From: Ceratodon purpureus
Lineage: Eukaryota > Streptophyta > Bryopsida > Pseudoditrichales > Ditrichaceae
DNA length: 64,000 bases
NCBI GenBank assembly: GCA_014871385.1
Contig: CM026430.1
Coordinates: forward strand, 17,339,433-17,403,432
Direction: 5' to 3'
How positions within the stretch are numbered: the stretch's first letter is position 1; every line of letters begins with the position of its first letter. The notes beneath the pieces are model-generated. The model was not told the origin of the DNA. It did not search any database and saw only the letters and a program-made list of their open reading frames with translations. Made by a program: the position numbers and the translations under genes. Of this stretch, positions 1 to 57,528 are shown piece by piece.

Positions 1-636
1 CCTGGCGTCCGTTGCTTTTCTTTACCTCGGGCTCTGTGTCTGGACTCATTCTCACTCTCTACAGGACCGCTCTCTCGCTCTCTCGCTCTCTCTCTCTCTC
101 TGGTCATTTGGTTATCGGCATCTTTGACTCTTCCGATCTCACTTACTCCCTTCTCCTGTCGAGTACGGCACGCCCGATTGGCTATTCATTGTCTGAAGTC
201 ATCACCAATTTAGTCTTGGACTTCTTTCAGGGTTTCAAGTTTATGATTTCGTGTCGATGCTCCTCGTCTTTGCTGCAATACAATCATATCGACGAGGATT
301 GATGGGTTAGAGTTGAAACAAATACTTGTTTGGAGTTTTGGCCATTTCTCGCAATTGAGTGGAAGCGCCACCGTCATCATGGACTAAGACATGTGCGAAG
401 TCAGAGGCGGCGAGCCCTGCTTCCTTCTAGGCTGAGTTGAATGCCTTCCTCAATTCATAGCACCTATCCCCATTACTATAGGTTGTTCTTTTGGAGCCGA
501 GTCTTCAGTGTTTGAAATATTGGTGCGTTTAACCGAATGCCATGGATTGACTCGGTGCTTTAAACAGCTGACGAGAAGAGAGGAGGCCCGCGTATCTCTT
601 AGTACAGCTGAGGTTGCTCGGAGAGAGAGCACAGCC
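1..636 (+). promoter_or_regulatory. Promoter and 5' leader of the HEN1 gene
   Basis: This stretch precedes the HEN1 start codon and shows no gene of its own. It holds a CT-rich run (about 69-102, CTCTCGCTCTCT repeats) of the kind common in plant 5' untranslated regions. The HEN1 frame stays open upstream to about 508, but that part lacks family similarity, so I treat it as leader. I cannot place a TATA box or transcription start with confidence. Confidence 0.35.
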
Positions 637-3600
637 ATGGCCACTGCGAAAGCGAAGCTCCATACGGTCATGGCCAGGACAGGCAAGAAATGCCGTTATG
701 AAACTTGGCAGTTGCCGCAATCAGAAGCAGGATCCGTTGCTTTAGAAGGGCATCCGGAATCTGGACTTCTTGAGTTCAACAAGCAGGATCCAATGTTCGC
801 ATGCAAGTTACACTTACCTGATGGCGTTACAATCCAGTCCAGCAATTTTCGCCGTAAAAAGGATGCCGAGCAAGATGCTGCTTTACATGCACTGCAGAAG
901 GTACGAGTTGACACCTCATCATTCCTGGTTTTATATTCACATGATAAAGACATCTATGACCTTTGTTTGATTGTTTGTTTGTTTGTTTCTACTTTCCTGT
1001 GCCTACAATTCTCGGTGTTCAAAATGACATCACCGAACAGGGATACTGAAAGATCCTCCAATTACCGTTCAATGAAAGACTGGAAATACATCCTATTGTG
1101 ACTTTCTTTTCTTGCTCTCTTCTGTCTCTTCTTTGTTGCTTAAGCTCTCCTTTGCTTTCTGTAGCTTTCATGTTCATTACGTATTGACTTACGTTATAGC
1201 GCTAACTTTGGATTGAGGTTAGACTGGACAACCTAGTTTTCTTGAATGACACTAATTTGGCAACCTTGCAGATGGGAATATTGTATGAACCCGGAGCCTT
1301 GCAGGCAACTGCCAAAGAATCATGGGAGGGTCTACTTCACAAAGTTTCTTTGGCCTTCACCGATCAGGTTTTCCTATCTCGATTCTGTTATGTGGAGGTG
1401 TTTTAGGATCTGGCTACTAGGATTGATTAAGTGGATATATATTTATTTTTTTGGTGATGTTGAGTTTTAAATGAAGGTGTCTGTTTGTCCCCTTAGTTTG
1501 GTCCGAGCCACTTGATCACAAGGGTTTAAATAGGGTTAGCCTAAGAGGCAATTCCAGTTCATCTCAATACGCAGGTCGATCTCTTCTTGAGTTCTCTTTC
1601 GGGGAGTTTTGGAACACTGTTGTCTGTTTAGTTATCTGTACTACACTAGGAGACAGGCGGAGAAGGTTGGGTTGTTGAAGAAGAGATAATTCGCTCTTAT
1701 ATATGTCCTTTTGAACTCTTGCCGGATAATTCATTCTGAAGGAAAAGATGAGAAATATAGGACTGTCGATCCTGAGGCAGAATAGGACCAGGGAGTTTGA
1801 ACTAATATATAATGATCGTTTTAGAGTTTTTTGTGTAGTTTGACTCTGAGTCATGGTGGGAAAGCAATGGCCATGGGCTTTAGATCGAGAAGTTGTACGT
1901 TTGGGATACCATCTTACAGTTGGTTTATGTGGGCAATAATGAAATGGCAGCACTTGCTTAATTATGCGTCAATTGAAAGTTTCATTTGATTGCAGATGGT
2001 GCTATCTTATAAGCCACTGGCGGAACACTTCAGGGCAGCTGTGCAGCGTAAAGGCTTAGGGTTTGGGCATGTTCCACTGATAGTGTTGACAGTGCTAGAT
2101 GCCAAAATAACATCACAGTGTAAATCAGTTGACCAACTTGCAGAAAACAATCCTGCTTACGCTGCTGCCCTTGTTTCCAAGGCAGCAGCTGCATGTTCAT
2201 CTCTCAAGGTTTCAGACGATGGCCTTTGGATCGGTCGCTCTGATCCATTCTCCCCTGAACTCGTAACAAAGTTTTTAACTGATCGAGAGGACCGAATTCA
2301 TTCACCACTCCCAGATGGTAGCGATGTCTTGGAAAGACTTGAAGCAACAGCCCCATCGATGATGTCAGCTTGCAATGGAGCTCTATCATTTAACGCAGTA
2401 TATATTTCTGCTTGTGCTGATAAGGAGTTGAGCACAATCAGTTTGCCTGCAACTCCGGATGTTTATTATCTGGATGCTATAGCGCATGAGCTGGGTCTGC
2501 AAGATGCAGGCCACGTGTTTATGTCAAGGTACATGTTGTCCTATTTCATTATTGTGTTATGGATAAGTTTCACAGTGTTGATATGTTCAATTGCCAACAG
2601 AGATTCTCGCTTGCGTTGCTACCTTTGATTTTTGCATGCACTGACTGAAATTGCCTTAAACCCTATTTTGGAGGTGGTCATCCTTGTTGCCGAAATCCAG
2701 TGGCTATATGAGTATGAGTGCAGTGAATGCCTCTGTATAACCCTCATACAGTTTTGAATGTGAATTTTTTGTCCTTCAAGGTGTCTAGCTCTCATGAAGA
2801 GTTCCTCTGGTATCATGATTCAGGCAGATTGCCAAGGCACCTGATGGATCTCGCTTATTCTGGGGAGTACCAGACAGATTACCCCGAGTCAATATTTCAG
2901 AAGTTGAGCTAGTGAAGCAATTTGAACCATCGAAGAATCATCCTGACCTCTGTTCCAAGGATGGTCCCATGGAAGCTTTGCGCAATCCTGGAAGACTGAC
3001 CCTGAGGAATGAGCGAGCAAGTTTTCTTGTGGGTCATGCTGTTCATGGTGATGCTATTCTTGCAACTGTTGGGTCCACTTGGGCATCTGAGGGGAGATGC
3101 ATCTATAATAACTTCACGTTGAGTTGCTTTCATAGGTACGATTCTGTCAAATACGGAAAAGCAGTTCATCACTATTTGCAAACGAGAGATTCCTTGAGGC
3201 CTGGGTTATCAAACATGTGAATAAACTCGTGAAATTGTCATTTATGTAGGTTGATGTTGGGGAGAACCCCATGGGGAGCTTACAAGCTAAGCAGACGATC
3301 CCTCTTAGTGGCTGACCTGCCGAAGGTCTACACTTGCAGGGCGCACTGGCAGGGTGCTAGTCCAAAGTCTCTTCTAGCAGATTTTTGTCAGCAGCATCGC
3401 CTCCCTGAAGCACAGTACACCTACAATGATTCGCAGGATTCTGTCGACAGTATTTCAAATGTAGATCTCTTGGAGGAAGGGCATATGAGGGATTCAGTGT
3501 TTATGAATGACAGTGCTTGCTCAAAGCATCATAGTCCCGGGACTAGTAGGCAGGGGCCGTTTCAATGTAGAGTTCAAGTTGGTTCCGCTGCTAACGAAGC

Positions 3601-5917
3601 TCGGATAAATTTTCAGTCAGATGGGTTTTTCCGAAGCCGCCATGATGCAGTCCAGAGTGCTGCATTGAAAGCTGTGACTAGTTATGGACGATGGGCTGGA
3701 ACAGGATGCCTTTGCAGCTACATTCGAAACCAAGATTGTTGCAAGGCAAGTGGAGATTTTATGGACATTGTTTCAAGAGATGGTACATTTTACAAGTCAG
3801 ATGAGAGCATTGGACAGTCGGAGTTTCTGGGGTCTCAAGTTATTGCTGAAGAAGATATACTCGGCGATCGGCCTCCTCCAGGGTCAATGGTATGTGTAAG
3901 CTACACCATAAACTTGATCGATGAAGGATCTTGTTATAATGGAAGTAGCTCTCAAGGTACTCCATCAAATGAATTAGAGTCTCAATTAGACTTCAAGTTT
4001 GAGCTTGGTGTTGGCGCTGTAATTAGCCAATTTGAGTCATGTGTCAGCAAGGCAACTGTTGGCCAAACTTTGCAATTTTGCATATCTGCGGAGGCACTTG
4101 GTGTGTTATTTGCAGCCAGCTGCGATTTTGACGAAAATCGGCCAGGTATGTCTCTAACATCCCCGAATTACCTACTTTCATCTTTTTCATGTTGCTGCTA
4201 AGATGCATATGAATGGGAAGTTGTACACTGTATAGTAGATCATCACTGTGAGTCTCGGACATGATTGGTTTCACATGTTGTGGCCTCCTTTAGGTTTGGT
4301 GCTTGAGTATACTGTGAAGCTTCTTAAATTTGAAGAAGCATTGGAGGAGAGGATAGAGTCATCACATTTTTCACCCCCACTTTCCAAGCAGCGGATAGAG
4401 TATGCTCGCACCATGATAAATGCTTTAGAAGCGAAGACGCTGGTACTGGTCCACAACTATGGCTTACTGATGCCCATATTTTTAATTGATGTATACTACA
4501 TCTGAAGTATTTCTTTATTATGTTGTGCTTATTGATCATCTCTGCAACCACCTTGTATGATGTGAGGCAGGTGGATTTGGGATGCGGGTCTGGAAGTCTA
4601 TTGGAGGCCCTTCTAAAAGAGCCAAACACGGTGGAGCACATGATCGGCATCGATGTATCTCGAAAAGCCTTGATTCGTGGTGCTAAGGTCTACATAACCC
4701 TTGTTAACGAATTACTTGTATTCCCCACCAAAATTGTTCGTTAATTCTTTTAACCGATATTTGTCTTTAGTTGGTATGAAGGCTGTGTATTATCTATTAT
4801 TGCACGATATCCACAACCATTGAGCTCCTGGATGATTTAATTGTAGATTTACTGAATAGCATGTTATTGTCGACTGTTTTTCTCTTTCTTTTTTCTGTGG
4901 AGGGTATTACAGACATTGAGCGCTACTTTAGCGAAGCCGAATGTAGCTCATACCATCAGAAGTATCACTCTCTATGAAGGCTCTATCTCTGCTATCGATC
5001 CAGGTCTTCGCTCCCCAGATTTGGCAACCTGCATTGAGGTCAGTTAATCTGAAGCCCTTGTATCTTACATTTTTTTTAACTTGTCAAGTACTCTATTGTT
5101 CTTGGTATTGCCACTGCATCGGAACTTTTTTTGGTGTTAGCAACAAAGTATTTACGTGGTTGGAAGAGCCACTTAATTTTGGCGAGCATTATTTGCATGT
5201 CAATCATATCAGCCGATTAGTATCTTAATCTATCGGTGTCTTTTGTTATGTGCTAGAAGTGTGGGTGTAGAATCACACAAATGTAAGCATGGCATAAATT
5301 GTCGTGCTTGGTCTAAAACTTGAACAATGTTTATGAAGGTGGTGGAGCACATGGATCCAGAACCTTTGAGCATGTTGGGCGAAAGTATACTTGGAAAACT
5401 AGTTCCAAAACTATGGCTAGTCAGCACACCGAATATCGAATACAATCCTATCATACGCGGCCTGGAGTGGGACCCTGAAAGCAACAGCCTTAATAAAGGT
5501 TCCCAGCAGAGTTCCTCTGAATCCAAGAAGATATTAGATGTTGAAACACCAAATCTCAGAAACCATGATCACAGATTTGAATGGACGCGAGCTGAGTTCC
5601 GAGAGTGGGCCTCCCGTCTTGCTGCGCAGTATGACTATCAGGTCAGTTTTGCAGGTGTTGGAGGGGATGGTGAGGACGATGAGAACAGTCCCGGCTTTGC
5701 CACACAGATTGCTGTTTTCGCACGTAATGTAGTAGTCTTTCCCGAATTTTGTCAATCAGCAAGTTGTAGCCAACATGACGATTCTAAGAGAGTGCTTAGT
5801 ACAACTGACGTGGATGAGTCAAAAGCCGAACTAGAAACTAGAGGAGCTGCTGCTGTCTCGCCGTCGAAGGAACTGTGGCAGTGGAACTTACCTGGACCCC
5901 CTGCAGCAATTTTGTAG
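637..5917 (+). CDS. HEN1: Small RNA 2'-O-methyltransferase HEN1 (9 exons, 1023 aa)
   Basis: HEN1 methylates the 2'-OH of the 3' nucleotide on both strands of miRNA and siRNA duplexes, protecting them from uridylation and decay. Exons read by frame and GT-AG borders: 637-900, 1272-1367, 1996-2528, 2824-3135, 3250-4145, 4294-4442, 4571-4687, 4913-5038, 5339-5917. All phases agree and no stop interrupts. Residues 1-88 form the first dsRNA-binding domain, about 505-546 the second, and about 610-700 the PPIase-like domain. The methyltransferase has the SAM motif VDLGCGSGS at 751-759. Its metal-binding set is E831, E834 and H835 (split by the exon 8/9 border) plus H907 or H909 in NHDHRFEW. The ATG at 637 is chosen because MATAKAKLH leads straight into the dsRBD. 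Arabidopsis HEN1 is 942 aa, so the length fits. About 80 C-terminal residues after the catalytic domain look poorly conserved. Confidence 0.95.
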
Positions 5918-10300: not shown

Positions 10301-10304
10301 ATGT

Positions 10305-10323
10305 AACACCGGTTCCGTTAAAA
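10305..10323 (+). repeat. Left terminal inverted repeat of the 10.6-kb transposon
   Basis: AACACCGGTTCCGTTAAAA, preceded by ATGT. It pairs perfectly with 20,882-20,900. The bases just inside (ATCTATATGCCC against GTGTACATAGCC) remain partly alike. Confidence 0.85.
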
Positions 10324-10821
10324 ATCTATATGCCCCTATATAAGTGCACTTACAAGAATTTTGAGTCTTTCATTTTTTATTGGTAAATTCTCATCAACAT
10401 TGTACATGTTTTGATTGATAATTTTGTTGATAATAAGTAGCAAGGCTTTAATTGATATTCCTCCAATAACATTCCTATAATTTGAGAATTTTATTTTTTA
10501 CAATGAGAGAATTATAAGAACAATACATCATATCATTCTATTATGGTAAAAATCATTTAGATTTACTACTTACATAAAGATGCAAAATCTTGGATTTCAA
10601 AAATGAACTGGGAAAGAATTTAAAGTGTTGAAGTATAAACATGATTGTAGTAGTTTTGTCCGGGAATAAAAAGATTTAACATTAATACAAATACGAAATA
10701 GATGATATCATCCATGGACTCTATTTAACTCCATGATCATCATCACTTCCATTACAAAGTTGTAGATTAAGGATGTGCCTTAATCTATTAAGTAGATATA
10801 AAATCACACAATACTAATGTC

Positions 10822-13800
10822 CTAATTTTCTATAGAAGTCAAATGAAATTGGAAATGAAACATTTCGTTGTTGGGAATTTTCAATTCTTTCTCAGTTCTC
10901 ATACCACGTACATTAGTTAAAGTACGTGTTCCAACTGTGTTATACCATCCAGTAAATATTGAGTCAATAGGAATCCAAGTATTCTCCTCTCGGGAAGGTT
11001 CCCATCCTCAATGTATACAATTTGTATATTGATTGTGGAAATATCCTTCTTCATCATGTAGTCCAATAGGCATTTTGGGCTGATACCATAGAACCTCAGC
11101 AGTTCCATCTTCAGAAGCTTGTTGGTTTAATGATACTACTTTTGCAACAAAAAAAGGAATGCCTTTCTCTCGATCGTCGGTCTCAGTCTCCAACCCAACA
11201 ATCATCCCTATTTTCACATCTTGGTGTGGATCAAATGACGGAAATTGATCGACAAGAATAGCATTGGGAATTGCTGGATTTCCTTGAGTAGGTGGTCGTC
11301 GTCCACGTCCTCGCCCGCGCCCTCGTCCTCGTCCTTGCCCTCGTCTTCGCCCTTGTTCTATCCCAGGCTCTCGCCGCCTTCTTCCTTGTCCACCCATTTC
11401 TTGTCCTCCATCTCCAAGTTGACCACTTTCTACTTCTTCTGTTCCAAATTCATCCCTTTCTTGACATCCTCTTCCTCGGCCTCGTATATTAGATCTATTA
11501 CCACGTACACGATGTCCTCTTGGCATTTCGGATCGAGGTCCAAAAAAAGATGTTACCATCACTGGGGGAAGTGATTGAAGAACATCATCAATCGCAGTAC
11601 TAGACAATGTTGACCTTTCAGGCAAAGGAGCATTTGCGGGCTCCAAATTGTTTATTATCGGCCAAAATGGTGCACGTGCTGCTTCAGAGTGATTGCTTTC
11701 AAGAAAATCTTTCAAGTATGAAATGAGCCACGTAGCTTCTTCAATAGCTTGAAGATTCTTTTCCACATTTATGTGTCTTGCAATATACCGCTCCTTTAAG
11801 GAAATGAAGTCGTCAAGAGCTTTAACTTCCCTTTCATCATGATTGAAAATAGGTGCCAACATTGGTTTCAGTCGGACATCGGGTATTGCTTGAAGACAAA
11901 TGTGTCCATTGTCAGGTTCCCATGAAGGAGATCTTGCATAATCCTTTTTTTGAACATGCGGTTTGTTATTTTGCATGTAAAACCTGAAATGATGAGGTTG
12001 GCTAATACCAACAAATGGATCTTCAGGCAAATACGGTGTAATAAACTTCTTCCAGTCTTGAATATATTCTAGATGTTCTGCAGAAATAAAGGGTTCTGTA
12101 AAGGTAGGGCGTGTTCGAATGATTTCTAACAATTCTTTCAAGGAGTCAATATCTTGTCGCTTCAAGGCTGAAGATATAAAACTAAAGCGTTGATCAATGT
12201 CTTCATGAGTATGGCCAACTATCAAAAAAGACAACTGGATTTCCTTAAAAAATCCAAGGGCTACTAATGTAGCACAGAGGCCAAGAATGTATACATTCTT
12301 GTTTTCTCTTCCACAATTGTCTGCTTGAATGCGTAGAATAGGAGGATACCGTCCACGTCGTTGTTTTACATCTTGTAAAACTTTCATGATGGATATAACT
12401 ACTTGATTGCTGTCATGTTTGTGATGAGAATCCACCCATACATGACAATATAAACCTATCCCATGAACAAGTACTCCACATAAGTGAGTTTTTACTTATC
12501 GAGACTCAATGCCTTTCACAGTCTGCTTGAATCTAGGCACATACGTGGTGTTCTGGTCCATACCATCTATGATGATACTCAAAACATCATCTGGACTCTC
12601 AACCGCAGCTTGTCTTGCACGAGTGTAGTCTTTTCGTTCCTCCATAGTCAGGTCTATGTGTATCTGATATTCTTGGGTCATAATAGCCTTCATAGCTTCG
12701 TTTGGTACGGATTTATACTTTCTTTGTACTCCCAACATACTTGGCATTTTGAAAACCGTGATTCAGATGGAACATGTACGTTTGTAAATTCTGCTTTCCA
12801 CATCTTCTTGAAAGTAGACAAACCTATCTTGGCTTCGCCCATACGTTGCAAAGAGTTGTTTGTCCATGTCCATACTTCGTGGCGTCGCACATTCATGGGT
12901 AGGCAAAACACTCCAACTTTCAAACCATCAAACTTTCGGATTGCATGTCGATGAGGTTGAGGTTCTCCAAACAATTGAATATATGACTCAAATATAGACC
13001 GAGCCATGCTCACATGAGTCCCTTCCTTCCTTCTTCCAATGTTTCCATGGGAAACATTGATTGCATCTTGATCTCGAATACTTGACATTATCTCGTTCAA
13101 TCTTGTAAGGCAATATCCAGTTGCTTTAGCAAAACAAGCATGACATACTTTACATCCGACCACCTTTGTTTCAAATTTGATTTCAGATTGTGCACTTGAA
13201 GACGAAACCATGAAGCTTCGAAGACAATTTAGAATCCAACGGGCTCGGTCTTCATACTTTGTCATGCTCAGTGCTTGATACCGTAGTGATAAAATATCGT
13301 GATCATCGATACTTTGAAGACATTTTTGGGCACAAAGTTTTCTGGCCTTTGCTTCTTGTACTGCATGTAAGGTCACTTTCTCTGATCTTGATAGTCCTTT
13401 CATACGAGGGCCTTTTGGTCTTCTTTGCTGGCGAATCTTGTGTATATATGGACGTCGAGGATCAGGAGTCGGCAATCCTTCCACAGTATGTTCAAACGAT
13501 GATCGACGGGAAGCGTGGGAGCCTTGAATATTTATCAAAGGTGATGAATTGACTTCCACAGTAGTTGCTGCTGATGGTACATCTAGATGGATAGATATGT
13601 CAAGATCCTTGATTTGAGATTGCGGCCATCTTATACACCTATGAAGGCATTCTCCCATAGTTTGAAGATGCAATTCGTGAACACGGGTTTCGGGAATCAA
13701 AACTCTTTGAATATAAACCACTTCATCATCCATAGAAAGTGGCTTATCATTTAATATATCACCCACGCCCATAGTACCCTTGCTTCTTTCGGCAACTGTG

Positions 13801-13970
13801 ATACCATAAATGTTTTGAAGAATGACCCCATTAGCAATTGTAGTTTGTTGTTGCTGCTGCATTGATTGAATAATGTGCTCATATTGACCATCCGTACCGC
13901 TTGTAAATCCTTCTGATGAAGGAAAGGCAACATCAACATCGTCCCATTCCCATCCGGTATCTACTTCCAT
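10822..13970 (-). pseudogene. DUF7869-type transposase-like gene, broken by a frameshift and two in-frame stops
   Basis: The frame runs from an ATG at 13,970 (MEVDTGWEW), just after a likely 3' splice site, to a TAG at 10,822, about 1048 codons. The N-terminal part has a Cys motif, CKVCHACF, and then the CQVCWEYKE segment. The core has IIDGMDQ, QADNCGRENKN and GHTHEDIDQRFS, which mark the DUF7869 family. The Asp/Glu spacing suggests an RNase H-like DDE nuclease (inference). After this come an RGG-rich stretch (11,290-11,520) and a BAH/Tudor-like tail ending VLWYQP. Three lesions are visible: a frame change where two frames overlap (12,690-12,747), an in-frame TAA (12,496-12,498), and an in-frame TGA (11,008-11,010) before WIPIDSIFTGW. 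Family similarity continues in frame across both stops, so they look like point mutations. Any product would be truncated unless the lesions are assembly errors. Confidence 0.75.
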
Positions 13971-14194
13971 AGAGTAGTCTGAATCCTTACAAGAGACTCT
14001 GGCACATATGAAAAAGAAGTAGCCACTCAATGTGAGATTTTAATGAAACATATCATAAAAATTTATTTAAATTCAACCTAATAGCAATTCATTACAAATT
14101 TCATTTTTATTCATTTTCTATAACTGAGTACATAAGATACATGCTTCCCTTGGACAAACCCTGACGCTTATCCAATTCTTCATTAGAGGCTTAG

Positions 14195-14800
14195 AAGTGA
14201 GACATATGTCTCCCACATCATCTGGAAATTATTTATTCATTTGATATAAAAAGGCCGTGGGGGAGACATATGCCTCCTCCACATACGGGCTTCCCCTGAA
14301 ATATTCATTTGAGTTAAGAGGGGGGAAGGTATATGTCACACCCACAGCCTTGCCCTCTTAACTGTAATGAATATTTTAGAGCAAGGCCGTTTGGGGGGAG
14401 GCATATGTCTCCCCTCCCTCTTAACTCCAATGAATATTTTAGGGCAATGCCGTTTGGGGGGAGGCATATGTCTCCCCCCCCCCCCTCTTAACTCCAATGA
14501 ATATTTTAGGGCAATGCCGTTTGAGGGGAGGCATATGTCTCCCCCCCCCTCTTAACTCCAATGAATATTTTAGGGCAATGCCGTTTGGGGGGGAGGCATA
14601 TGTCTTCCCCCCTCTTAACTCCAATGAATATTTTAGGGCAAGGCCGTCTGGGGGGGAGGCATATGTCTTCCCCCCTCTTAACTCCAATGAATATTTTAGG
14701 GCAAGGCCGTGTGGGGGGGAGGCATATGTCTCCCCCCCTCTTAATTGTAATGAATATTTTAGGGCAAGGCTGTGGGTGTGACATATGCCTTCCCTATTGT
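14195..14800. repeat. Tandem array of about 63-bp units with G-run/CATATG/C-run palindromes
   Basis: CATATG centres lie at 14,203, 14,267, 14,402, 14,465, 14,532, 14,597, 14,660, 14,723 and 14,782. In the regular part each is flanked by six or more G before and C after, giving a near-perfect palindrome. The spacer CTTAACTCCAATGAATATTT is shared. The units at about 14,262-14,340 lie in the opposite orientation to the rest, so the array contains an inversion point. It begins about 165 bp upstream of the DUF7869-type frame, in its promoter or leader. Open frames reading through it on both strands are artefacts of the repeat. Confidence 0.9.
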
Positions 14801-15500
14801 ACTTTTTATTAAAACTGTTAAATTAAGTCTCAACTTAATGAATTTAACTAATGCAACGGTGGTGAATGTGATTGGTTTTGTAATTTCTTTTCTTTGTATG
14901 TTATTTTATTTAATAAAAAGAGAGGCGGTGGGACATATGTTTAATCTTATTAATGATTCACTGATTTATAAAGAGAGAGGTATGAAGTAAGACATTTTTC
15001 ACTTGCCAATCTTGTTTTGCCATATTTCATAAAATAAAATTATTATGCTAAAAATAAGAATTTAAATGCATATGGAACAAAAGACATATTCAAACACTTA
15101 ATTGCCATAATAGAAGAAAATATTCTATGCTAACATAAAGGCAAAAAAAAATCCCGAAATCTTCAAAATTGTAGAATAGTCACAAAATCAATGACATCAT
15201 CGTTTTTCCAATCAAACCATGATGAATAACTCCTAAATAGTATGAATAATGGATTTTTGTTATATACATGGATTATACCCATTGATATGCTTAACATTTA
15301 CATATTTTTCTTAAAAAAAAAATTAGCCTATTTGCAATAGTTATAGAATTTTAAAGTTTTCCTAAACCCTAAACCAAATCCAGAATTTAAAAATAAAATA
15401 AAAATAAAATAAATAAATAAATAAAATTAATTTTCTTCTTAGATATTTCTCGTGCATCCGTGACTGCAACCTTTGTGCTTCCGTAACTGCAACACATGTA
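14801..15500. other. AT-rich spacer between the divergent genes of the transposon
   Basis: Very AT-rich DNA with poly-A/AAAT runs (15,390-15,430) and no recognisable frame. One further ACATATG lies at about 14,934. This is probably the outer part of a shared promoter region. Confidence 0.4.
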
Positions 15501-17043
15501 CAGACATACACCAACAGAACACAGTTCAAGAGAGAGACAAAAGCAAAAGCGAACCAGCACACACAGGACACTATAGGTCCACTTCAATACAAACGTACCC
15601 ACTGCTGTCCTCGACTCAAACGCCGCCACCGCTGTCTTCCACGCTTCGCTACCTCTCCCTTCCACGCCGCTCTTGCTTTCTCCGCAAGCGCTATTCTCGA
15701 AGCTGCAAGCTCTATCGCTGCACTGTTTTCGAAGCTACAAGCGCTGTTTTCGGAGGTGCTAGCTCTATCGCCGCCTTCGCTATCTCCGCCAGCCCGGTAT
15801 TCCACGCCGCCAGCGATCGAACTTGCTGAGGTCGTCGACAGGTCAAGTTTTCGACGACAGGTCAAACTTGCTCCGCCAGCCCTGCTATCGACGCCGCCAC
15901 CGAACAAAAGTGCTCAGCTCAGCTCGACGTCATATCTAGTCTCAACTAGGTAACTGCCTCTCAATCCTTGTGCTCTTTCTGTTCTGGAGTTCAGCTTCTG
16001 AGACAATCTCATCGGCTTCTTGGCTTCTTGGATTTTGATGAATGTATTGGGATTCTGATTTGGTGCAGGCTTGGAGACGCTTTCAATCAGCGGGTTCGGT
16101 ACTTAGCCTCCGTGCCGTGCTCTCAGCCTTGAAACCCTAGGTGTGCGTTCAAGTTGTCATCATCTGAGCAGTGGACCGTTCCTCTTGCGTAAATCTCAGG
16201 TATTTATCTAGGTTGTACAGGTTAGGGAAAAAGTTGCTCTCTTCTCGTGTGTTACTTGGGTTAGATATCTCCCACTCTCAAGCCTAGGAATGAGAAGCTC
16301 TGGATGTTTCCCACAGCAAATTTTCAGCGTACATGTTGCAAAGAGTTCAACAAATTAGTTTACTGTACTTGTTTGATGGTCTTCAAGCTTGGCCGTGAAT
16401 ATGTGGGGTCATGGGGTTTCTTTTTGGTTGAAGTGAAAAAATTGGAAGGTTTCAGAGGGATGCAATGAAATTACATGGTGTAGCAACGTTTAATTACATC
16501 AACTATTTTTCTTTACATACATCATCGCAATAACTACCTCCCCTCTCTTCTATTTCTTTCCAATTCTCATCAAAATTTTAATATATAATATACTTGAGAT
16601 AGGCACATGTTCCACTGTCATAGATTTTACATTTTATTCCGTACGAAGAGGGAGGTGGTGAGGCATATGCCACACCCCTTTACTATTTCATTTTTTAGCA
16701 CAAAGTCATTGTAGGAAAATGTGTGGGGGGGGGTGAGGCATGTGCCACACCCCTTTACTTTTAAAATCCTAGCACTAAGTCCTTGAAATAGGAGAGGAGG
16801 TGAGGCATATGCCACACCCCTTTACTTTTTTTATTTCTACCCATAAAGTCTTTGAAATAGAAGGAAGGGGCGGGTGAGGCATGTGCTACACCTCTTTTGT
16901 TTAAGGTTTTCAAGTAGCTAGTGGGACACCAACATTGCTTTCAAGTTTATATTATATAGCTTATTGTAAAAGTGAGGCATGTATTTTTTTCCTTTTGTGC
17001 CTGAAATACAAATACAACTTTTGTTTTCTATTTTGTAGGATTT
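15501..17043 (+). promoter_or_regulatory. Leader of the VDGQH gene with two likely 5' UTR introns
   Basis: Composition changes to GC-richer, CT-rich DNA at about 15,560-16,200, as expected of a transcribed leader. Good splice borders suggest exon 1 ending at 15,949 (ACTAG then GTAACT), exon 2 at 16,069-16,199 (GGTGCAG before it, CTCAG then GTATTT after) and exon 3 from 17,039 (TTTTGTAG before it). Open frames at 15,470-15,950 look like chance frames in skewed sequence. The second palindrome array lies inside the second intron. Confidence 0.5.
16655..16985. repeat. Second array of CATATG/CATGTG palindromes, inside a leader intron
   Basis: Four to five units of about 67-75 bp. Each contains GAGGCATATGCCACACCCC or the CATGTG variant (centres at 16,664, 16,739, 16,806 and 16,880, weaker at 16,976), followed by CTTTACTTTT and AAGTC-TTG. 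The GAGGCATATG core is shared with the array at 14.2-14.8 kb while the spacers differ, so the core is the conserved part. Confidence 0.85.
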
Positions 17044-20000
17044 ATGAGGCAATTTGCAATGCCACCGCCACGAGAGAAAGAATTTGTAAAAATGTCAAAG
17101 ACTCCAAAGCCTTCGGATGCTTTTAAAGATTATGGATGGTATCTTACACGAGATGACAAACGCGTTATTCTAAAAATCACTCATTATTCTTGGGGAGAAG
17201 GAAAGGTTTTATGTTCAAAGATATGGAAAAGAGGATGCTCTGTTCAAAAAATTGTGGCTCCAGCTTCTTCAGGGGAAGAGGGTACTTGCGAGATTTTTGT
17301 TATACCAAATGCAAAAACCGGTGTTACTTCTTTTGTTCTGAAAACTTCCAATATTATTGGAAGTTTAGATGATTTGGCTGGCATGAAAATTACAGGTCTA
17401 CCAAAAGCACGGAAATGGTGGACAGAGTTGAAGGAGACAAGGCAAAATCTTTGTACTTCTATGCTGAATGTATTCATGAGTTTGAGTGAAGCAGAAGAGA
17501 TGGAGTTGACTGACTTCATGGATGCTCATGAGCGTTTTGCCTCAGTTGGAGACAATTCAAATATTATAGGTTTGGAGAAGCCAAATCGTCCAACAGCAGA
17601 CAAAAAATGGTATGGAGCACTATCATTTCCGGAAGATCATTCTCAACATGAGGATTCACAGATTCATAATCAATCACTTCCTGTAGTTCCTGCTCCATTT
17701 GAATTTGGAGAGCTCCGTGGAGGAAATTCACGTTTTGAACTGACAACTGATGATCTTGTTGCATCGACTCAAGAACCCTCTCGAGCTATTTCCAAAGGAA
17801 AAGGAAAAAAACTTGTTAGCTCTAAGAAGAGTAATGAGAAATCTATGGGGAAGGAATTATTAGATCCCCCATCTCAAGATGAAATTGACAAAGGATACAT
17901 TTTTGGAAGGGATTTCTCTTTTATGGTTGATATTGATCATGTGAGAGCTCCAACGAATGGATTCACTAATCAACGCATCCTCAATGTGAAGAATGCAGAA
18001 AAAGTTTACAATGCATTGCGATCAAGGCAGTTGGTAGAAAATCATTGGATAACTGTACGTCCAATGTATTATAAAGACCCCAATGGCATTGTTGAAGGAG
18101 AAACTCATTTCAAAGGAAAGAATTCAAAACAAGAATTCTTGAAATGCTTAGAAGAAATGCCCGGAGATTCCCTTGACGAGAAAAGAGAATCATTTCTGAA
18201 AGGCACTGTATTTGAGCCAGTGGATGGACAACATATTGTACACGCTTGTAGTATTTTGGCAAGACGTGATCTCGAATCTCAATCACTTTTGAAGGAGGAG
18301 TACGACAGTATATTTTCAAGACGACCTGCCACGCTTGTTCTTTATGATGATGATATCACGTATTTATTTTCATCAACAAGATTGAATGACATTACAACAA
18401 ACAGAAAGTACCACAGTACTATAGGTGAAATGTTGGAGAAAGGAAGATTACTGTGGGATACTCTTGGTTGCCCAAATGCAGATGATGACAGAAAAAAAGA
18501 TTTTCTGCGTTGTTTGCCAGGAATTACAAGCCAACGGTTGGGTGTAGGTGAGACCTTCTACAAAGATATGAGAATCAAATTTCGTGATTATGTTTCTATG
18601 ATTACACTTCCAGATACATGTTGGGGAGCATTGAAGGCCATGTGTGATGCCTATGATAACGGACTTACTTTCAAGTCAAAGAAGCAACGAATTACAGAGC
18701 TTGTTAGTCCAACAGTCTACAGTGGGAAAAAGTCAAAAGCCTCAAGTGGAGACCGTCCAAGTATGTCTATTGGCTGGCTCCGACCTCTTCAAGGTTTAAC
18801 TGCGAATGAACACATCATGCTGTGTAAAATGGCAACAGCGGATTCTTTGGACACAGAGCAAGAAATTTATTTCGCCGGCGGAGATGATGGAAAATCATTA
18901 CAACATTGGTGTGAGGTAGCGAAACTTCGAGCTGGCATTCAAAATGCCTTCAAATGGTTGGAAGCTGGTCACGAAAATCTACTTGGTGAGAACAAGAATT
19001 GGTTACAAGTAGATGTGGAGAAGTTTGGAGGCAAGGATGCACTGGATTATTTTGCAAGGAATATTTCAAAAGGTCCTGATTTTCAGAAGCATTGGAGCCA
19101 TATCAATCCTCAAACTGCCTATGGTAAACAGCGCAAACATGTTGATTTGATTCCTCGCGATGTGATTGACCATCACATGCTAGTTTCACGCGGTGGTTTG
19201 GGGCTTTATTTCAATGGAAAAGCCATTCCACGGGAAGAAGATGGTGATTGGAAAATGAAATTTAATTATGAAGGAGCAGGTGGATATGGATTTCATACTG
19301 AAGTGAAGATTGGTGATTCCATTTTTAAAATCAATGAAGGTTCATTAGGAAGAAGTGCATTGTGGGTGTTTGACTGTCGATATGGACCTGAAGGTGGTTA
19401 TTGGTCTAAGGCAGAGTACTCATCGGTAGTTGAGAAGATCAAGATATGGATGGGAGAAGTCAAGAGATGGAATGCGCTTTTCATGCTACCAGCTGGAGAG
19501 AATGCAGAACACATCAAGAATTTGATGTGTTTGGATAATATTGCGGAATATTATGTTCAGGTTGGAATATATATCTTTGGTTCACAATCGGAGAGAACTG
19601 GTTTAGTTGTCAAAGATGGACCAAAAGCCGTTGCCAAATTCTCTCCACTTGGACAATATATTATTGTTTTACATCATCCTCCTAAATCATTTTTGGAGGA
19701 TAATTTTGCTAAAGATAAGCAAAATATTGCTTCGTATTATATTGAGTCAACACATGGATGGAATATATGTTCCAAGTTTCGGAACGCTCGTTGTCCAGCC
19801 GTTATTGAAGCCTTGATTAGTCACTTTTATCGAACAGATTGGGTGATAATCATGGAGGGATTCTCTCACATGATAGAAAATGTTAGTGGAAGAGTTGAAC
19901 AACTCATTCTTATGGAAGGAAATCCAGAAATGCATCTATGGCTTGAGAAGTGGAAAGAAGTTTATGTTGATAAGGTTCGAGAGCTGCTTCCAATTAAAGA

Positions 20001-20403
20001 TCCGCTTTGGTTGGACAAAGAAAGTGAATCACTTGATGAAGACAGTCGTTCTGATTCTGAAGAGGGTGATGAAGAAAGTTCATCACCAACAAATAAACGC
20101 AAAAGAAGTATTAATGAGGGAGTTCATCATCAAGGGAAGAAAAAAAAAATTGTTGAAGCTATTGGTGAGGAAGACTCCACCATTTTATGTACACATGATC
20201 CTCACTTACCATCTGCTGAAGTCCGCAACGAAGGAGATAATCAAGAAGCTGGCGGATCTAAGGTTGTTGGTCTTAATGAGGACGAATTAACTGAGGTTAA
20301 TAATTCTGTAGCTAAAGCAGCCCATTATGGAGAGAATGCTTTGATAGCTGAAAAGGATATTTATTCTTTGGGGCTAGGTTTTACAGAGTCTCAACAGCAT
20401 TAG
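17044..20403 (+). CDS. Unknown 1119-aa protein with a ParB/sulfiredoxin-like VDGQH region
   Basis: A single uninterrupted exon; the first ATG after the likely splice acceptor is used, and M17 is an alternative start. I do not recognise the protein as a whole. Residues about 285-440 read like a ParB/Srx-type nuclease fold: VDIDHVRAP, then QRILNVKNAEKVYNALRSRQ, then FEPVDGQHIVHA (390-401), where DGQH sits at the position of the ParB/DndB signature. A longer middle part (about 680-960) includes LVSRGGLGLYFNGKA, VLHHPPKSF and RCPAVIEALISHF. The C terminus is acidic, with a KRKR/KKKK nuclear signal at about 1020-1040. The order ParB-like then C-terminal domain resembles prokaryotic ParB-methylase fusions, but I see no DPPY or FxGxG methylase motif. 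It is the only intact gene of the transposon, so it is either an accessory factor or the real recombinase. Confidence 0.7.
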   Translation: MRQFAMPPPREKEFVKMSKTPKPSDAFKDYGWYLTRDDKRVILKITHYSWGEGKVLCSKIWKRGCSVQKIVAPASSGEEGTCEIFVIPNAKTGVTSFVLKTSNIIGSLDDLAGMKITGLPKARKWWTELKETRQNLCTSMLNVFMSLSEAEEMELTDFMDAHERFASVGDNSNIIGLEKPNRPTADKKWYGALSFPEDHSQHEDSQIHNQSLPVVPAPFEFGELRGGNSRFELTTDDLVASTQEPSRAISKGKGKKLVSSKKSNEKSMGKELLDPPSQDEIDKGYIFGRDFSFMVDIDHVRAPTNGFTNQRILNVKNAEKVYNALRSRQLVENHWITVRPMYYKDPNGIVEGETHFKGKNSKQEFLKCLEEMPGDSLDEKRESFLKGTVFEPVDGQHIVHACSILARRDLESQSLLKEEYDSIFSRRPATLVLYDDDITYLFSSTRLNDITTNRKYHSTIGEMLEKGRLLWDTLGCPNADDDRKKDFLRCLPGITSQRLGVGETFYKDMRIKFRDYVSMITLPDTCWGALKAMCDAYDNGLTFKSKKQRITELVSPTVYSGKKSKASSGDRPSMSIGWLRPLQGLTANEHIMLCKMATADSLDTEQEIYFAGGDDGKSLQHWCEVAKLRAGIQNAFKWLEAGHENLLGENKNWLQVDVEKFGGKDALDYFARNISKGPDFQKHWSHINPQTAYGKQRKHVDLIPRDVIDHHMLVSRGGLGLYFNGKAIPREEDGDWKMKFNYEGAGGYGFHTEVKIGDSIFKINEGSLGRSALWVFDCRYGPEGGYWSKAEYSSVVEKIKIWMGEVKRWNALFMLPAGENAEHIKNLMCLDNIAEYYVQVGIYIFGSQSERTGLVVKDGPKAVAKFSPLGQYIIVLHHPPKSFLEDNFAKDKQNIASYYIESTHGWNICSKFRNARCPAVIEALISHFYRTDWVIIMEGFSHMIENVSGRVEQLILMEGNPEMHLWLEKWKEVYVDKVRELLPIKDPLWLDKESESLDEDSRSDSEEGDEESSSPTNKRKRSINEGVHHQGKKKKIVEAIGEEDSTILCTHDPHLPSAEVRNEGDNQEAGGSKVVGLNEDELTEVNNSVAKAAHYGENALIAEKDIYSLGLGFTESQQH

Positions 20404-20881
20404 ATTTATGGATGTGTAATACATTGATGGCAGTATTTGTCATAACTGTAGGTTGGTTTTGTTTTGTAATGTGACACTTTTTATCATCTATAAATTATAC
20501 AATGTGTTATTTTCTAATGAGTATTCATTGATTTTTTTGAATATGTTCCATCTATGTAAATTTGACAATGATGTATTACCTCTATAATACTAGAACTACA
20601 TATCTACACTTTATTTCTACAAACAAAAATAATTCACAAATCAACTTCTACTTTTATATTACAAATATCAAGGAAAAATAAAATATTTCTTAATTATTTC
20701 AAATCTATATTTGATGATCAATTAAATTAGATAAGGCTTCATGGTCTTTGATGATTTCCATTGGTTCAGAATTATGCTGAATAATAAATTCATATGATCA
20801 AAAACATGTTTTGTGCCATAATATTATCAATTAAATGTTAAAAAATTATCTTAAAAAAAAACCGTACATGGCTATGTACAC
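20404..20881. other. 3' flank of the VDGQH gene up to the right TIR
   Basis: AT-rich, no gene. It would hold the 3' UTR. A small inverted repeat, GTACATGGCTATGTAC, lies at 20,864-20,879 just inside the right TIR. Confidence 0.4.
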
Positions 20882-20900
20882 TTTTAACGGAACCGGTGTT
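20882..20900 (-). repeat. Right terminal inverted repeat of the 10.6-kb transposon
   Basis: TTTTAACGGAACCGGTGTT, the exact reverse complement of the left end, followed by ATGT at 20,901-20,904 as the duplicated target. Confidence 0.85.
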
Positions 20901-21119
20901 ATGTGAGTAATACTTGAAACCATGTATCCAATGTGTATGAGTTAAAAATGGAGCATGTAATAGAAGGATATCTTTGTCTTCCAAAAAAGATTTATTTTCT
21001 GGCATTTCCCATATAAGTCCCGTACAAATTTTGATGAAGTATGATTTTTGTTCATCTATGATAGCCGAGATTTTCAAGATTCCACCCAAAAAAATTTGCT
21101 CCATCTTTTGAACTCTATA

Positions 21120-21382
21120 TACCGTAGCTTACTAGCATCTTTGTCCAAAAATAATTCTAAAAATAGAAAAAAATTAGAAAATTATGAAGTCAAAAAAACG
21201 AAATTAGAATAAATTAGTTTTTCCAATACTTTGTTAATTCTTAGCCATTTAAGGTCATTTTTACTGATTTTTGGCTAAAAAACAAAAATTAAGAAATTGA
21301 GTTTCCTCGTGACGAACATCATTTTTTCAAAATAATTAAATATTCGACTGTGCATGGACGAAGCTGCTAGTAGGCTACGGTA
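21120..21382. mobile_element. 263-bp MITE with TACCGTAGC ends and TA duplication
   Basis: The left end, TACCGTAGCTTACTAGCA, matches the reverse complement of the right end (TACCGTAGCCTACTAGCA) at 17 of 18 positions. TA flanks both sides (21,118-21,119 and 21,383-21,384). The interior is AT-rich with no frame. Size, TIR and TA duplication fit a Tc1/mariner-type or similar MITE; the family is not assigned. Confidence 0.7.
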
Positions 21383-21387
21383 TATAT

Positions 21388-22394
<1,007 letters not shown>

Positions 22395-40557: not shown

Positions 40558-43500
40558 ATGGAAGAGGGGACGATACTGCCGCTCAGAGATCGAAGACGAC
40601 GGGATGCACGCGACCTGAAGCTAATGCGTCGGGAGGAAGAGTTGGCGGATCGAGGACGGGCAAGGAAGCGAATTTGTCCTTGCAACATCTGTATGGGACA
40701 GACGCATTCTCTCAGGTTTCGGGCCGTGGTTCGAGAGCACCTGAAAATCTATGGAAGGCACCCCTACCACAGGGGCTCAACTGAGGTGAGATATATTACC
40801 TCGAATTTTCATTTTATTTTTCTGCAACTTCAGCTTGGCAAATCAAGCAGCAACCAGCATAGCATCCACTAATTGAAGTGAGTTATTGGATTCATTTGTT
40901 TCAATGTTTAATGGTTTGTGTATGTCGTTAGGGTATTGAGAAGGACGACTCTGACGTAGAGTGGGATGGAGACATTGTTGAACAATTCGGCGTGAGAGGA
41001 GGGGTAGCTGGCCGGGAAGGCGTTCGGAGTCTAGACGAAGGTATGAGGATGGAAGGGCTCGTACAACACACCTTCCATGTATATGATCAACTAGTGGGAA
41101 ATGTCTACGACATCAGGGATGGTGAGGAAGTACTCGAGGCAGACAACGTCGTCCATATGGGTGGAGAGCAAGCGCAATATGATCCGGATAGAGCACCAGG
41201 ATTTCCGGAAACGGGTGAAACGGAGAGCGGTCCAGCAGAGGGAATGCCACACGAGGAAGAAATGCAGGATGATGACCTGCCGGCTATGGAGGAAACGAGG
41301 CCATATCAGCAGCAAATTCTAGAAGAAAGTGCGAGAACTCCACTCTTCGCAGGTTCAGGTCTGACCCAACTGGGAGGTACGCTTCTCATGTTGAATTGTT
41401 TGAGGACTCACAATGCCTCAAATACTTTGGTCAATGAAATATTTGCGATTCTCAGTAAGAGTATGTTGCCGGAAGTCAATTCTCTGCCAAGAAATGAGTA
41501 CCAGGCATCAAAAGTTTTGAAACAGTTAGGCCTTGCTTATGATACAATTCATTGCTGCCCTAGACCTCGAACATGTGTTTTGTTTAGAGGCAATGATTTT
41601 AAGGACTTGGTTAGCTGTCCAGTGTGCGGTGCCAATCGCTACAAGCAGGTAGGGAAATCTAGGGTACCTGCAAAAGTGCTGCGTCATTTTCCTTTGATTC
41701 CTAGGTTGCAGAGGATGTTTAGCACACCATTACAGGCGAGTTACATGACATGGCATTCGAGGCATCATAGCGAAGACGGGGTAATGAGGGGAGCTGTAGA
41801 CTCCCACCAGTGGAGATTTATAAATTGGAGATACCACGCTGAATTTGCTTTTGAGCCGAGGAATTTGCGACTTGGGCTGGCCACCGACGGGGTTAATCCT
41901 TTTTCGATAAAGCGTAGTACGTGGAGTACTTGGCCAGTTTTGTTAATGAATTATAACTTGCCACCTTGGATGACTACGAAAAAGCACTTCATTATGCTGA
42001 GTCTAATCATACCGGGGAAGCGATCTGTAACTGGAGAGAACTTTGATATCTACCTACAACCACTACCGGAGGAGTTGCAGATTTTGTGGAGAACTGGAGT
42101 ACCTATGGAGGACGCATCTATGTTTCAAGGAAGCCGGAGATTTAACATGAAAGCCATTCTACTATGGACAATGCACGATTTTCCAGCCTATGGAGTAGTA
42201 GCAGGCTGTGTTACTAAAGGATATCGTGGCTGCCCTGTATGTGGAAAGAATACAATTTCAAGGCGGTCATTATCTCTTCGAAAAAATGTATATGACGATC
42301 AACACAGGCGGTTCCTTCCTCTAGACCACGCATGGAGGGCAGCCGGACCCGAGTTTGATGGACTCGCTGAAGGGAGAGCACCTCCTGCGAAAATGACATC
42401 AGAGGAAATTTTGCGCTGGGGCGCCCTTCGAGAGAGCTGGGTGCATTTAGGAGCGAGCCCGGCTTCCACAGATCCTGCTCGCGAATCAGGGATCAAAAGA
42501 ATGTCTGCTCTATTCGAGCTTGAATATTGGAAGGTACCTGGCCTATGAAATTTGCTCATGGAGCTCAGTCTTATGAATTGTTTACACTGTGATGTTGAAG
42601 CCTCCGAATTCAATGTTGTTCACACGTTCCTTCGTAGAATTTTCGAAGCTAAAATATTTCTTGCGCCAAAACACTGGGTCAGCTTTCTTCAGTTCAGAAA
42701 CGGCGAATTCACTACATAGCTTTGAACTATAGTTTGCTTCGAGATCCGTGTCTCACTGCGCATACTCTTGAATTAACGCACTCAACCGTTTAGGCCATAG
42801 ATCTCTCTGCAGTCTTTTCGTACCTGTGAATTAATTCGAGTTCGGTCTCCATGACCACGTTGTTTTTTAGTAGAGTAAATATTCCTGTAGAGTAAATGCA
42901 GCCCCTGTCTTTTTAAAACAACTACACGACGTCTGTTATGCTTACAAGAGTGGTTGTTTATGCACATACTTCGATAATGCAACAGTGAAGACTGATAGGC
43001 GTCATTACATTCTCCTTTTAACGTCAAATCCCAGTGCTTGAATATTGCTCATGGAACGGCATTGTCCTATACCATTTCAGAATCCATACTTAAGTAGGAA
43101 CAAAGGACCAGATTTACTTGTAAAAATTGAACGTATCGACTCTTTAGTGAACAGTTGAGCAGTCCTCTAACCTGGTTCGGCCATGCTTCAATCTTGAGTA
43201 TTATCCAGGATATCTCCTTGTAATACCGGTCCTGGGTACATCATCCTCTTCCATGCATAATTGCGGTGTCACGTTTCATGTGATAAAAATTCATTCAGTG
43301 CATAGAAACCGATAACATTGACACCTGCGTTTTTATTTTTATGGTTGTGTCGTTAACGAGTTGTGCACTACTCTATAACCTTTTTTTTTTTTCAAATTCC
43401 AGTGCCCTCTACTAGTATGTACGCTTTTCTTCTTATGTTGATTTCCTTACAGAAGAGTCAATCTGGATTAGAATGCCTTGTATAGGTTGGACTCGGGAGC

Positions 43501-45696
43501 ATCGGGTCCTACCTAGTCAGGAGTTATTGTAGCTCGCGTAGTGTATTCAATTTTTATTACTCTATGTTTGGTTTCTCCACTTATCTCTTGTATAACCGGC
43601 CCTGGATACATTAGACTCTAACATGTATCATTACAATGTAAGCAATTTTATGCGAGTACAGTGCAGACAGTGTGTTGGATCTGGTACAAGGTTTCCTGAA
43701 TCACATCGAGGAGTCAGAATCATGTGTATAGCAGGTTTTTAGAGGTCCGTGTTGGTTTCAGATTTTTTCAACCATAGTCTGTCATATTTGTTGGCAGTTC
43801 TGATTTGAAACTATATTCACGCAGGAACTCCCCATACGCAACACATTAGATGTGATGCATATTGAAAGAAACGTGAGTGACAACCTTCTCCGACACTTGT
43901 TCGGAGACAAAGATACATTGGAGACGCGCAGGGACATGGAGGCAGTGGGCAAGATGCACAATCTGCATCTTGTTCTCGGTCCATCTGGCAATTATCAGAA
44001 ACCGAAAGCACCGTATACCTTCTCAGAATGGGAAAAAAATGATTTCCTAACGCGGGTCTCAAGTACAAAAGTCCCCTCAGGATATAGCGCCACCCTTACA
44101 AAACACATCGGAGAGAAGCGATTGCTGGGACTTAAAAGCCACGATCATCATGTATTGATCCAGCAGATCTTACCTGCGGCTATTCGGCATAGCCTTAGCC
44201 GGGGAGTGAGAGACACCATCATACGACTGGGGAACCTGTTCCAGCGAATCTGTGCGAAGGTGATACGAATTTCAGAAATTGAGTCCTTGCGAATTTCAGC
44301 TGCAGAGGTACTTTGTCTTTTAGAGGTACATTTTCCACCGGGATTCTTTGATATAATGACTCATCTTGTCATACATCTAGTGGATGAGTTGGAAATTTGT
44401 GGTCCAGTACATGCAAGGTGGTGTTATTCCGTAGAAAGGTATCTTGGAGTTCTCACAAAGTATGTGAGGGACAAGTCCAAACCCGAAGCCGGGATGGCTA
44501 CGGGGTACATGATTGACGAAAGTTTGGGGTTTTGCACCGAGTATTTTGAGCTGTACGAGCACAACAAGAGTAGGGTCTGGGACCCGGAAGAAGAGCTTAA
44601 AGACTGCGGAGAATGCCTCCTTGGTAAACCCAGACCAAAAACCCTTACTGACAGGGAAATTGAACAAGTTCATGAATACGTGATTACACATTCAGTCCAT
44701 ACTGAGGAGCTGCTGGAGTAAGTGAATCAGACTTAATTTCTGTTATTTTAATTATCATCCCGCATTGATTCAGTTCTGTTGGCATTCAGCATCTAGTAAT
44801 CACTGACCTGCTACTGCAACACCAGGGAATGGAAATACCAAGCTGAAGACTTCAAACAAAGAAGACGTGCATTTGCAAGTTCCCATAGACGGCCAAGGGG
44901 CACACCTATCCAGTATCCAGCAGAGTTAGCGGTTGCTTTTCCTAAATTTGCTCATTGGCTCAATGCTCATGTGCGTGACCTGAAGGAGGCCGAGTTCCCT
45001 GTATCCACTGAGCTTGATTCCCTACACTGCCCACCTTCGCAGCACGCATGGTCGTTTAACGCCATGTGGGCTTATGGCTCGCATTTCAGTTGTAATGATG
45101 AGACAAGGCCTTCAGCTGTGACCTTTGATTCGGGAATAGCGGCTATTCCCCCCTCTGCCACTTGCACCGAAATTGACGTGGGGATTTTAAAGAACATCAT
45201 ATGTGTGTCGTATGGAGGGATTCATCCAGTACTCATGGGGGGCTCATGGATAAAATCGCGTGACCAAGGAAGAAGAGTCGTGCGCAAGGATTCGCACGGT
45301 TTCTGGATCGTTCAGTACCATTGCCGCGATGTTTCTGAGTCTGATAATCCTTTTGTTTATCCGGCCAGTGTATCGCAAGTCTTTTTTGTCTCTGATGCTG
45401 TTGACTCCGCCTGGAAGGTGGTGTTGCGTCACGATCCACGATCCAGACGCATACAAGGTGATAGAGAATTTCATGTGTTTGGTGCGGCTGGTAGTATTCG
45501 GCCCACCCTGAGCACGAGGTCGGTGAATCACGTGGGGAGTAGCTCTGGACGCTCCCGTGCTGAGAATAGTGAAGCAGAGGAGGTCCCAATCGAGCGATTT
45601 AACGCCTACATCCGAGAAGAGGAACTACCTGACGACTTGGCTCATTTGGACGATACGCAATTTGAGGATGAAGTTGAGATTCAGTACGTCGAGTAA
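40558..45696 (+). CDS. CACTA transposase TNP2 (4 exons, 1197 aa)
   Basis: TNP2-type transposase, which cuts at the CACTA ends. Exons: 40,558-40,785, 40,932-42,533, 43,825-44,717, 44,826-45,696. Phases agree and there is no internal stop. Exon 1 has the N-terminal transposase-associated domain (CPCNICMG, VREHLKIYGRHPYHRGST). Exon 2 has the zinc ribbon (SCPVCGANRY, about residue 305) and the catalytic tnp2 domain: MTWHSRHHSEDG, LATDGVNPFS, GCPVCGKNT. Exon 3 opens ELPIRNTLDVMHIERNVSDN, directly joined to LEYWK of exon 2, and carries the DUF4218 region (LEVHFPPGFFDIMTHLVIHL, CYSVERYLGVLTKYVRDK). Exon 4 holds DUF4216 (about 1030 on, NIICVSYGGIHPV). The gene looks functional. The start is the first ATG in the conserved frame. 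Confidence 0.9.
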
Positions 45697-57054: not shown

Positions 57055-57528
57055 CGCTGTTGATCATTATATTGAGGTCGGAATGTCCATGACAGCAGGT
57101 GGAGAATGATTCATTCTGTTAAGTAACGAATGTATGATTTAAGAGGGACGGCGCTAACTATTTCGAATGTGACTTTTTGCTGGCCGAATTATAGCAGGTA
57201 AGATATTAATGACTCTACTTTAATAATGTCAATCGTGGCGCAGATTCTATTAGTTATGAAGTTTGGTAAGATTGGATTGAGCCGCCTTTTAAATTCTACA
57301 TTTAAAATAATGAATAAAAAAAGGAGCATGCTTTCAAGTGCTTGATTCTAATGTTTTAATTTATACTGTGCCTGGATTCCGACTATATATTTAAAGGTTA
57401 ATATTGTAAACTACACTTCACAATAGAACTGTCATGGACACTCTTAATATAAAGAGAGTATAAAATGTGTATCGTGTTAAGATGCTATATGAATTTAGGG
57501 TTGTATCCAAATAGTTCTTCCTTATAGG
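57055..57528. other. Divergent promoter region between MULE transposase and the 260-aa gene
   Basis: AT-rich, no frame. It must hold the MULE transposase promoter (-). The + strand gene's likely TATTTAAG box lies just beyond its right edge. Confidence 0.45.

Follow-up and report, generated by a model that had tools for sequence, protein, structure and literature searches.

The window considered here, the whole stretch of DNA that was analysed, is 64 kb of Ceratodon purpureus contig CM026430.1. At 10305-20900 it carries an element of 10,596 bp, bounded by inverted ends, which contains two divergent genes and two arrays of palindromes and which we discuss as a candidate DNA transposon. The left gene encodes a DUF7869 protein, the right gene a protein of 1,119 amino acids (aa) called here the VDGQH protein after its most conserved motif. 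Coordinates are collected in Table 1.

Ends and layout of the element

The 19-bp end sequence, AACACCGGTTCCGTTAAAA, was sought in the window with up to three mismatches allowed. Two sites were found, in opposite orientation and both perfect, and 0 of 100 shuffled controls gave a match at this threshold. With one flanking base counted, the similarity of the ends extends imperfectly over 30 of 38 positions. The junctions read GCATGT/AACACC on the left and GGTGTT/ATGTGA on the right, which places ATGT on both flanks; for random window positions 8-12 kb apart the chance of a 4-bp identity is 0.0054. Between the stop codons and the ends of the element lie 517 bp on the left and 497 bp on the right. 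A pattern scan of viral contigs found no copy of the 19-bp ends.

An earlier reading, made from the sequence alone, had described exact 19-bp inverted ends, a matching ATGT duplication and two divergent genes ending about 500 bp from the ends. All of these are present, and the ends with their flanking duplication support its view of a single coherent mobile unit.

The two genes

By homology the left gene runs from an ATG at 13970 to a stop at 10822-10824. Four minus-strand frames make it up (14039-12690, 12762-12496, 12495-11008 and 11007-10822); they align by eye with single relatives, for example P0003 and P0010, and are therefore read as one coding unit. Three lesions interrupt it: a frameshift near 12.70-12.75 kb and stop codons in frame at 12496-12498 and at 11008-11010. 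A full transposase cannot come from this copy of the element. The upstream frame, 12690-14039, matches no Pfam family and gives only one match in NCBIfam, to homeo_ZF_HD, with an E value of 0.032 that is far below the cut-off.

A protein search with frame 11008-12495, in which just the 8,000 candidates with most shared words were scored, yielded 77 relatives (P0003-P0079), three of them Branchiostoma proteins. In the alignment of these homologues the conserved aspartates, counted over the sequences that are not gapped at the position, are the first of DGMDQ (53 of 53, with 24 gapped), that of QADN (55 of 62, with 15 gapped) and the first of HTHEDID (66 of 69, with 8 gapped); further residues near the three are also conserved. 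DUF7869 thus appears to have three conserved acidic positions arranged in a DDD-like way, the pattern expected of a DDD transposase. On account of these residues, the inverted ends and the flanking duplication, the DUF7869 protein is probably the transposase of the element. The sequence-only reading had suggested this role for it, and the conserved acids, ends and duplication agree, although the gene itself is a pseudogene in this copy.

Three protein scans of viral contigs found no relative. Among 63 pattern matches in prokaryote genome contigs there was one relative of DUF7869, L001, with 25% identity in an alignment built with 14 of the 77 homologues. It lies at 243-3091, split over frames, on a contig of 3.2 kb listed under a metagenome-assembled genome of Acidimicrobiales, and is followed by a frame that by eye resembles a Ulp1-type protease. 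L001 is probably eukaryotic contamination in that assembly.

The right frame is open from its ATG at 17044 to the stop at 20403. Searches with the protein used 17047 onward (1,118 aa), each scoring the best 8,000 candidates, and returned P0001 (62% identity), P0080 (77%) and the distant P0002 (25%), on contigs of at most 6,269 bp. EPVDGQH is invariant in all four sequences. No family was assigned to the protein by Pfam, NCBIfam, PHROGs or PADLOC, and a motif search of the literature gave nothing relevant among the matches listed. The left gene has three lesions in ~3.15 kb, whereas the right frame is open over 3.36 kb. By our own arithmetic such an intact frame has a chance of ~0.04 at an equal neutral rate, which hints weakly at longer preservation of the right gene than of the left.

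Proposed assignment to Sola and the alternatives

Several questions arise when a unit of this kind is to be classified. Does it belong to a group of transposons already named? Is DUF7869 the enzyme that moves it, or part of the load? Is it a mobile element at all? We now consider these issues.

Sola elements are described as having DDD transposases, 4-bp duplications, ends of 11-1124 bp and sizes mostly of 2-9 kb with some above 15 kb, and as present in moss (PMC10741241); Physcomitrella has Sola1 (PMC9033089). The ATGT flanks of the present element, in its one copy, correspond to the duplication length of Sola, and its ends, whether the perfect 19 bp or the imperfect extension is counted, fall within the reported range. 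We somewhat favour the view that 10305-20900 is a complete copy of a cut-and-paste DNA transposon of land plants, Sola-like, with Sola1 as the nearest named group. A land-plant relative of known Sola transposons seems a better description than a wholly new kind.

Of particular value is Sola1-1_Ec32 of Ectocarpus, a 21.5-kb element with a second gene, in the opposite orientation to the transposase, whose 1,104-aa product is described as ParB-like plus methyltransferase (PMC12477816). This precedent is the strongest reason for not calling the present element a new superfamily. Both elements are large, with a second gene opposite the transposase whose product is of ~1,100 aa and said in part to be ParB-like, and the transposase broken here has its counterpart in the giant Ectocarpus families, where that gene is frequently pseudogenised (PMC12477816). 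They differ in length, 21.5 kb as opposed to 10.6 kb, and in the described methyltransferase domain of the Ectocarpus accessory protein, none being found here by profile test; the comparison is by description only. In the literature PMC12477816 was the one paper found to link ParB with Sola or with transposons. The sequence-only reading knew of no named superfamily for its combination of features. That statement now has little behind it, as Sola fits, with its DDD transposase, 4-bp duplication, occurrence in moss and the ParB-like gene of Sola1-1_Ec32, and a new superfamily does not seem to be needed.

The plant Sola1 elements of Physcomitrella (PMC9033089, PMC10741241) share with the present one a 4-bp duplication, short inverted ends, what look like DDD-type acids and a non-flowering plant host, and the size of the present element is within the printed spread. 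The excerpts of these accounts differ from what is seen here in making no mention of a second gene or of palindrome arrays. Sola2 with Fanzor1 in Dictyostelium and Polysphondylium (PMC3627910) also combines a 4-bp duplication, ends of 12-21 bp and an accessory gene adjoining the transposase, but the duplications are AT-rich (AWWT and similar) and the accessory is Fanzor1, not a VDGQH protein.

Several results weigh against the assignment to Sola. The likeness is drawn from published descriptions of features and not from sequences, and the element is known from a single copy, that of the window. The junction letters can also be parsed as a 2-bp TA duplication with 18-bp ends. By our own arithmetic, with equal base frequencies assumed, the extra ATGT matches would then have a chance of ~1/256, whereas under the ATGT parse the chance of an accidental TA is ~1/16; for this reason the 4-bp duplication is favoured and TA taken as less likely. 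When 36 of the 77 DUF7869 homologues were compared with Pfam, no transposase family was found: 34 match DUF7869 and the other 11 families are weak single-member matches. A profile of 36 of the 77 gave weak and unrelated best matches to solved structures, with E values of at least 0.15.

The right protein provides further points of this kind. A ParB profile was made from 13 selected ParB-like sequences (PhiCh1, three of four plasmid records and nine of 30 listed phage entries, 83 having matched) and compared with residues 290-480, a range picked around the VDGQH motif. The best local alignment sets VDGQH on DGEHR with a score of 15.2, which lies within the shuffle range, at least five of 50 shuffles scoring higher with a maximum of 21.95; a left-out ParB-like sequence scored 110.7. 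With the whole protein the best alignment shifts to residues ~913-933. The ParB-like label proposed from sequence alone accordingly shrinks to the level of the motif, given the lack of a Pfam match and a profile score inside the shuffles, and may serve as a lead from VDGQH. The DGEHR in question is that of the ParB-like/DNA methyltransferase of PhiCh1 (M.PhiCh1-I; L007), to which the right protein is unlike in that the alignment score is within the range of shuffled profiles and no similarity to methyltransferases was detected. By eye its C-terminal half has a beta-class methyltransferase-like layout with altered motifs, which we do not claim. Against a yardstick of nine selected enzymes (eight of the 60 phage matches listed, 1,975 having matched, and E. 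coli yhdJ) neither hmmsearch nor hhalign (residues 690-1000) was significant, the profile score being 12.15 compared to 9.72-17.40 in 20 shuffles. The N6/N4 methyltransferase profiles from these nine enzymes and Pfam gave no beta-class DNA methyltransferase match, and identification as a methyltransferase was rejected.

Other groups of transposons were considered. A Tc1/mariner element would suit the letters under the TA parse, yet no such transposase family was matched in the frames or homologues scanned. CACTA/EnSpm elements have CACTA-type ends, a 3-bp duplication and a tnp2-type transposase; membership is ruled out by the ends, AACACCGG, the ATGT flanks and the presence of DUF7869 only. 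Mutator-like elements have a 7-12-bp duplication (PMC10741241) and a MULE transposase; the present flanks match over 4 bp only, with no MULE family in the 36 of 77 homologues compared with Pfam.

A superfamily distinct from Sola, in which DUF7869 would be an unrecognised DDD/DDE transposase, is the less probable but still serious alternative. DUF7869 carries no functional name in Pfam and the word had no match in a search of the open PMC literature; acidic residues are conserved in it, it is present from this plant to Branchiostoma, and no further copy of the ends turned up in the window or in the viral contigs scanned. Set against this, the duplication length, DDD-like residues, size, plant range and ParB-type partner are all as printed for Sola, and for Sola1 especially. 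That the element is non-autonomous, with both genes captured as cargo and moved by an unrelated transposase recognising the ends, we regard as improbable: this copy has a broken DUF7869 gene and giant transposons often bear other genes (PMC12477816), but relatives of DUF7869 are many and its conserved acids are like those of a transposase, both genes fit within the ends, and Pfam found no other transposase family in the three frames of the element scanned. A chance inverted repeat around host genes, with no mobile element, has next to nothing in its favour beyond the one copy seen in the 64-kb window. It is rejected by the shuffle test, where 0 of 100 controls yield even one such end at three mismatches, and is at odds with the flanking duplication and with the way both genes lie within the ends.

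For the Sola-like element the following course of events can be envisaged. The DUF7869 protein, as a DDD-type transposase, would bind the inverted ends, excise the element and insert it at staggered cuts 4 bp apart, from which the ATGT duplication would result. The right protein may be an accessory factor, perhaps recognising CATATG palindromes upstream of both genes, and might control the expression or chromatin state of the element. Since the transposase gene is broken and the accessory frame open, this copy would be mobile only with transposase supplied by another copy. Should DUF7869 prove to be a transposase of the Sola type, a single profile search could reclassify as transposons many genes of unknown function, among them those of Branchiostoma.

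Palindrome arrays and neighbouring features

Tandem Repeats Finder reports a 63-bp unit repeated 6.6 times at 14353-14770 and a 74-bp unit repeated 3.5 times at 16648-16897. The core pattern GGAGRCATATGYCTCC has 12 matches with up to three mismatches; 11 of them belong to the two arrays, and the twelfth falls in the DUF7869 gene. Outside the element the window holds none, the number expected for the window being 0.44, and the shared palindrome arrays of the sequence-only reading are borne out by this distribution. Of 15 cores in the arrays 12 are CATATG, two CATGTG and one TATATG. Self-pairing is seen at 9-12 of 13 positions in 11 cores and at 6-7 in the other four, compared to 3-7 of 13 for 24 control CATATG sites elsewhere in the window, with the caveat that the hexamer CATATG by its nature supplies three pairs.

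Since the arrays are found upstream of the two genes and away from the ends of the element, a regulatory role is more likely than one in end recognition. Separate from the superfamily question, it is nearly an even matter whether they reflect ordinary tandem-repeat growth, with no binding partner within the element. Tandem arrays expand by slippage, the spacing and the G or C runs vary, and four of the 15 cores are no more palindromic than controls; on the other hand the same palindromic core is retained in two arrays with diverged spacers, each upstream of a gene of the element. Binding of the CATATG arrays by the VDGQH protein from the same element, in the manner of bacterial ParB on parS, is a putative and rather unlikely function. 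If true, this would be a eukaryotic transposon with a self-recognition device consisting of centromere-like sites and the gene for their partner, alongside DUF7869 as a DDD transposase family with no function found in the literature. It would offer a compact case of an accessory factor recognising its own transposon, an idea proposed for algal elements (PMC12477816).

Table 1. Features of the element and its flanks (positions in the window)
Feature	Position	Strand	Basis
Left target-site duplication, ATGT	10301..10304	.	Flanking letters
Left terminal inverted repeat, 19 bp, perfect	10305..10323	+	0/100 shuffles match
DUF7869 gene, putative DDD/DDE transposase, pseudogene in this copy	10822..13970	-	Homology to relatives
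Open frame with Pfam DUF7869 (PF25273, E 1.3e-54), QADN and GHTHEDID motifs	11008..12495	-	Pfam
Left palindrome array, core near GAGRCATATGYCTC, ~63-bp spacing, 11 cores, some degenerate	14191..14950	.	Upstream of DUF7869 gene
Probable 5' leader of right gene, plausible introns	15420..17043	+	Splice sites judged by eye
Right palindrome array, core near GTGAGGCATRTGCCACAC, ~74-bp spacing, 4 cores	16648..16897	.	Upstream of right gene
Open 1,119-aa gene, motif EPVDGQH	17044..20403	+	Open frame; no family in Pfam, NCBIfam, PHROGs or PADLOC
Right terminal inverted repeat, 19 bp, perfect	20882..20900	-	19-mer search
Right target-site duplication, ATGT	20901..20904	.	Flanking letters

A TA microsatellite of ~62 units occupies 21381-21505, 480 bp beyond the right end of the element. 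Elsewhere in the window, pieces of a HEN1 small-RNA methyltransferase gene are found at 1990-4198 on the plus strand (Hen1_LCD, Hen1_Lam_C and dsRBD2, with FKBP_C below the cut-off), a plant-type set of domains that points to a plant as the source of the DNA, and CACTA/EnSpm-type genes at 40932-45693, also on the plus strand (Transposase_21, that is tnp2, and DUF4218, with DUF4216 below the cut-off). Two long minus-strand frames at 53290-57063 have no Pfam match; the shorter has a Cys/His stretch that by eye resembles a SWIM zinc finger and is perhaps a Mutator-like or similar transposase.

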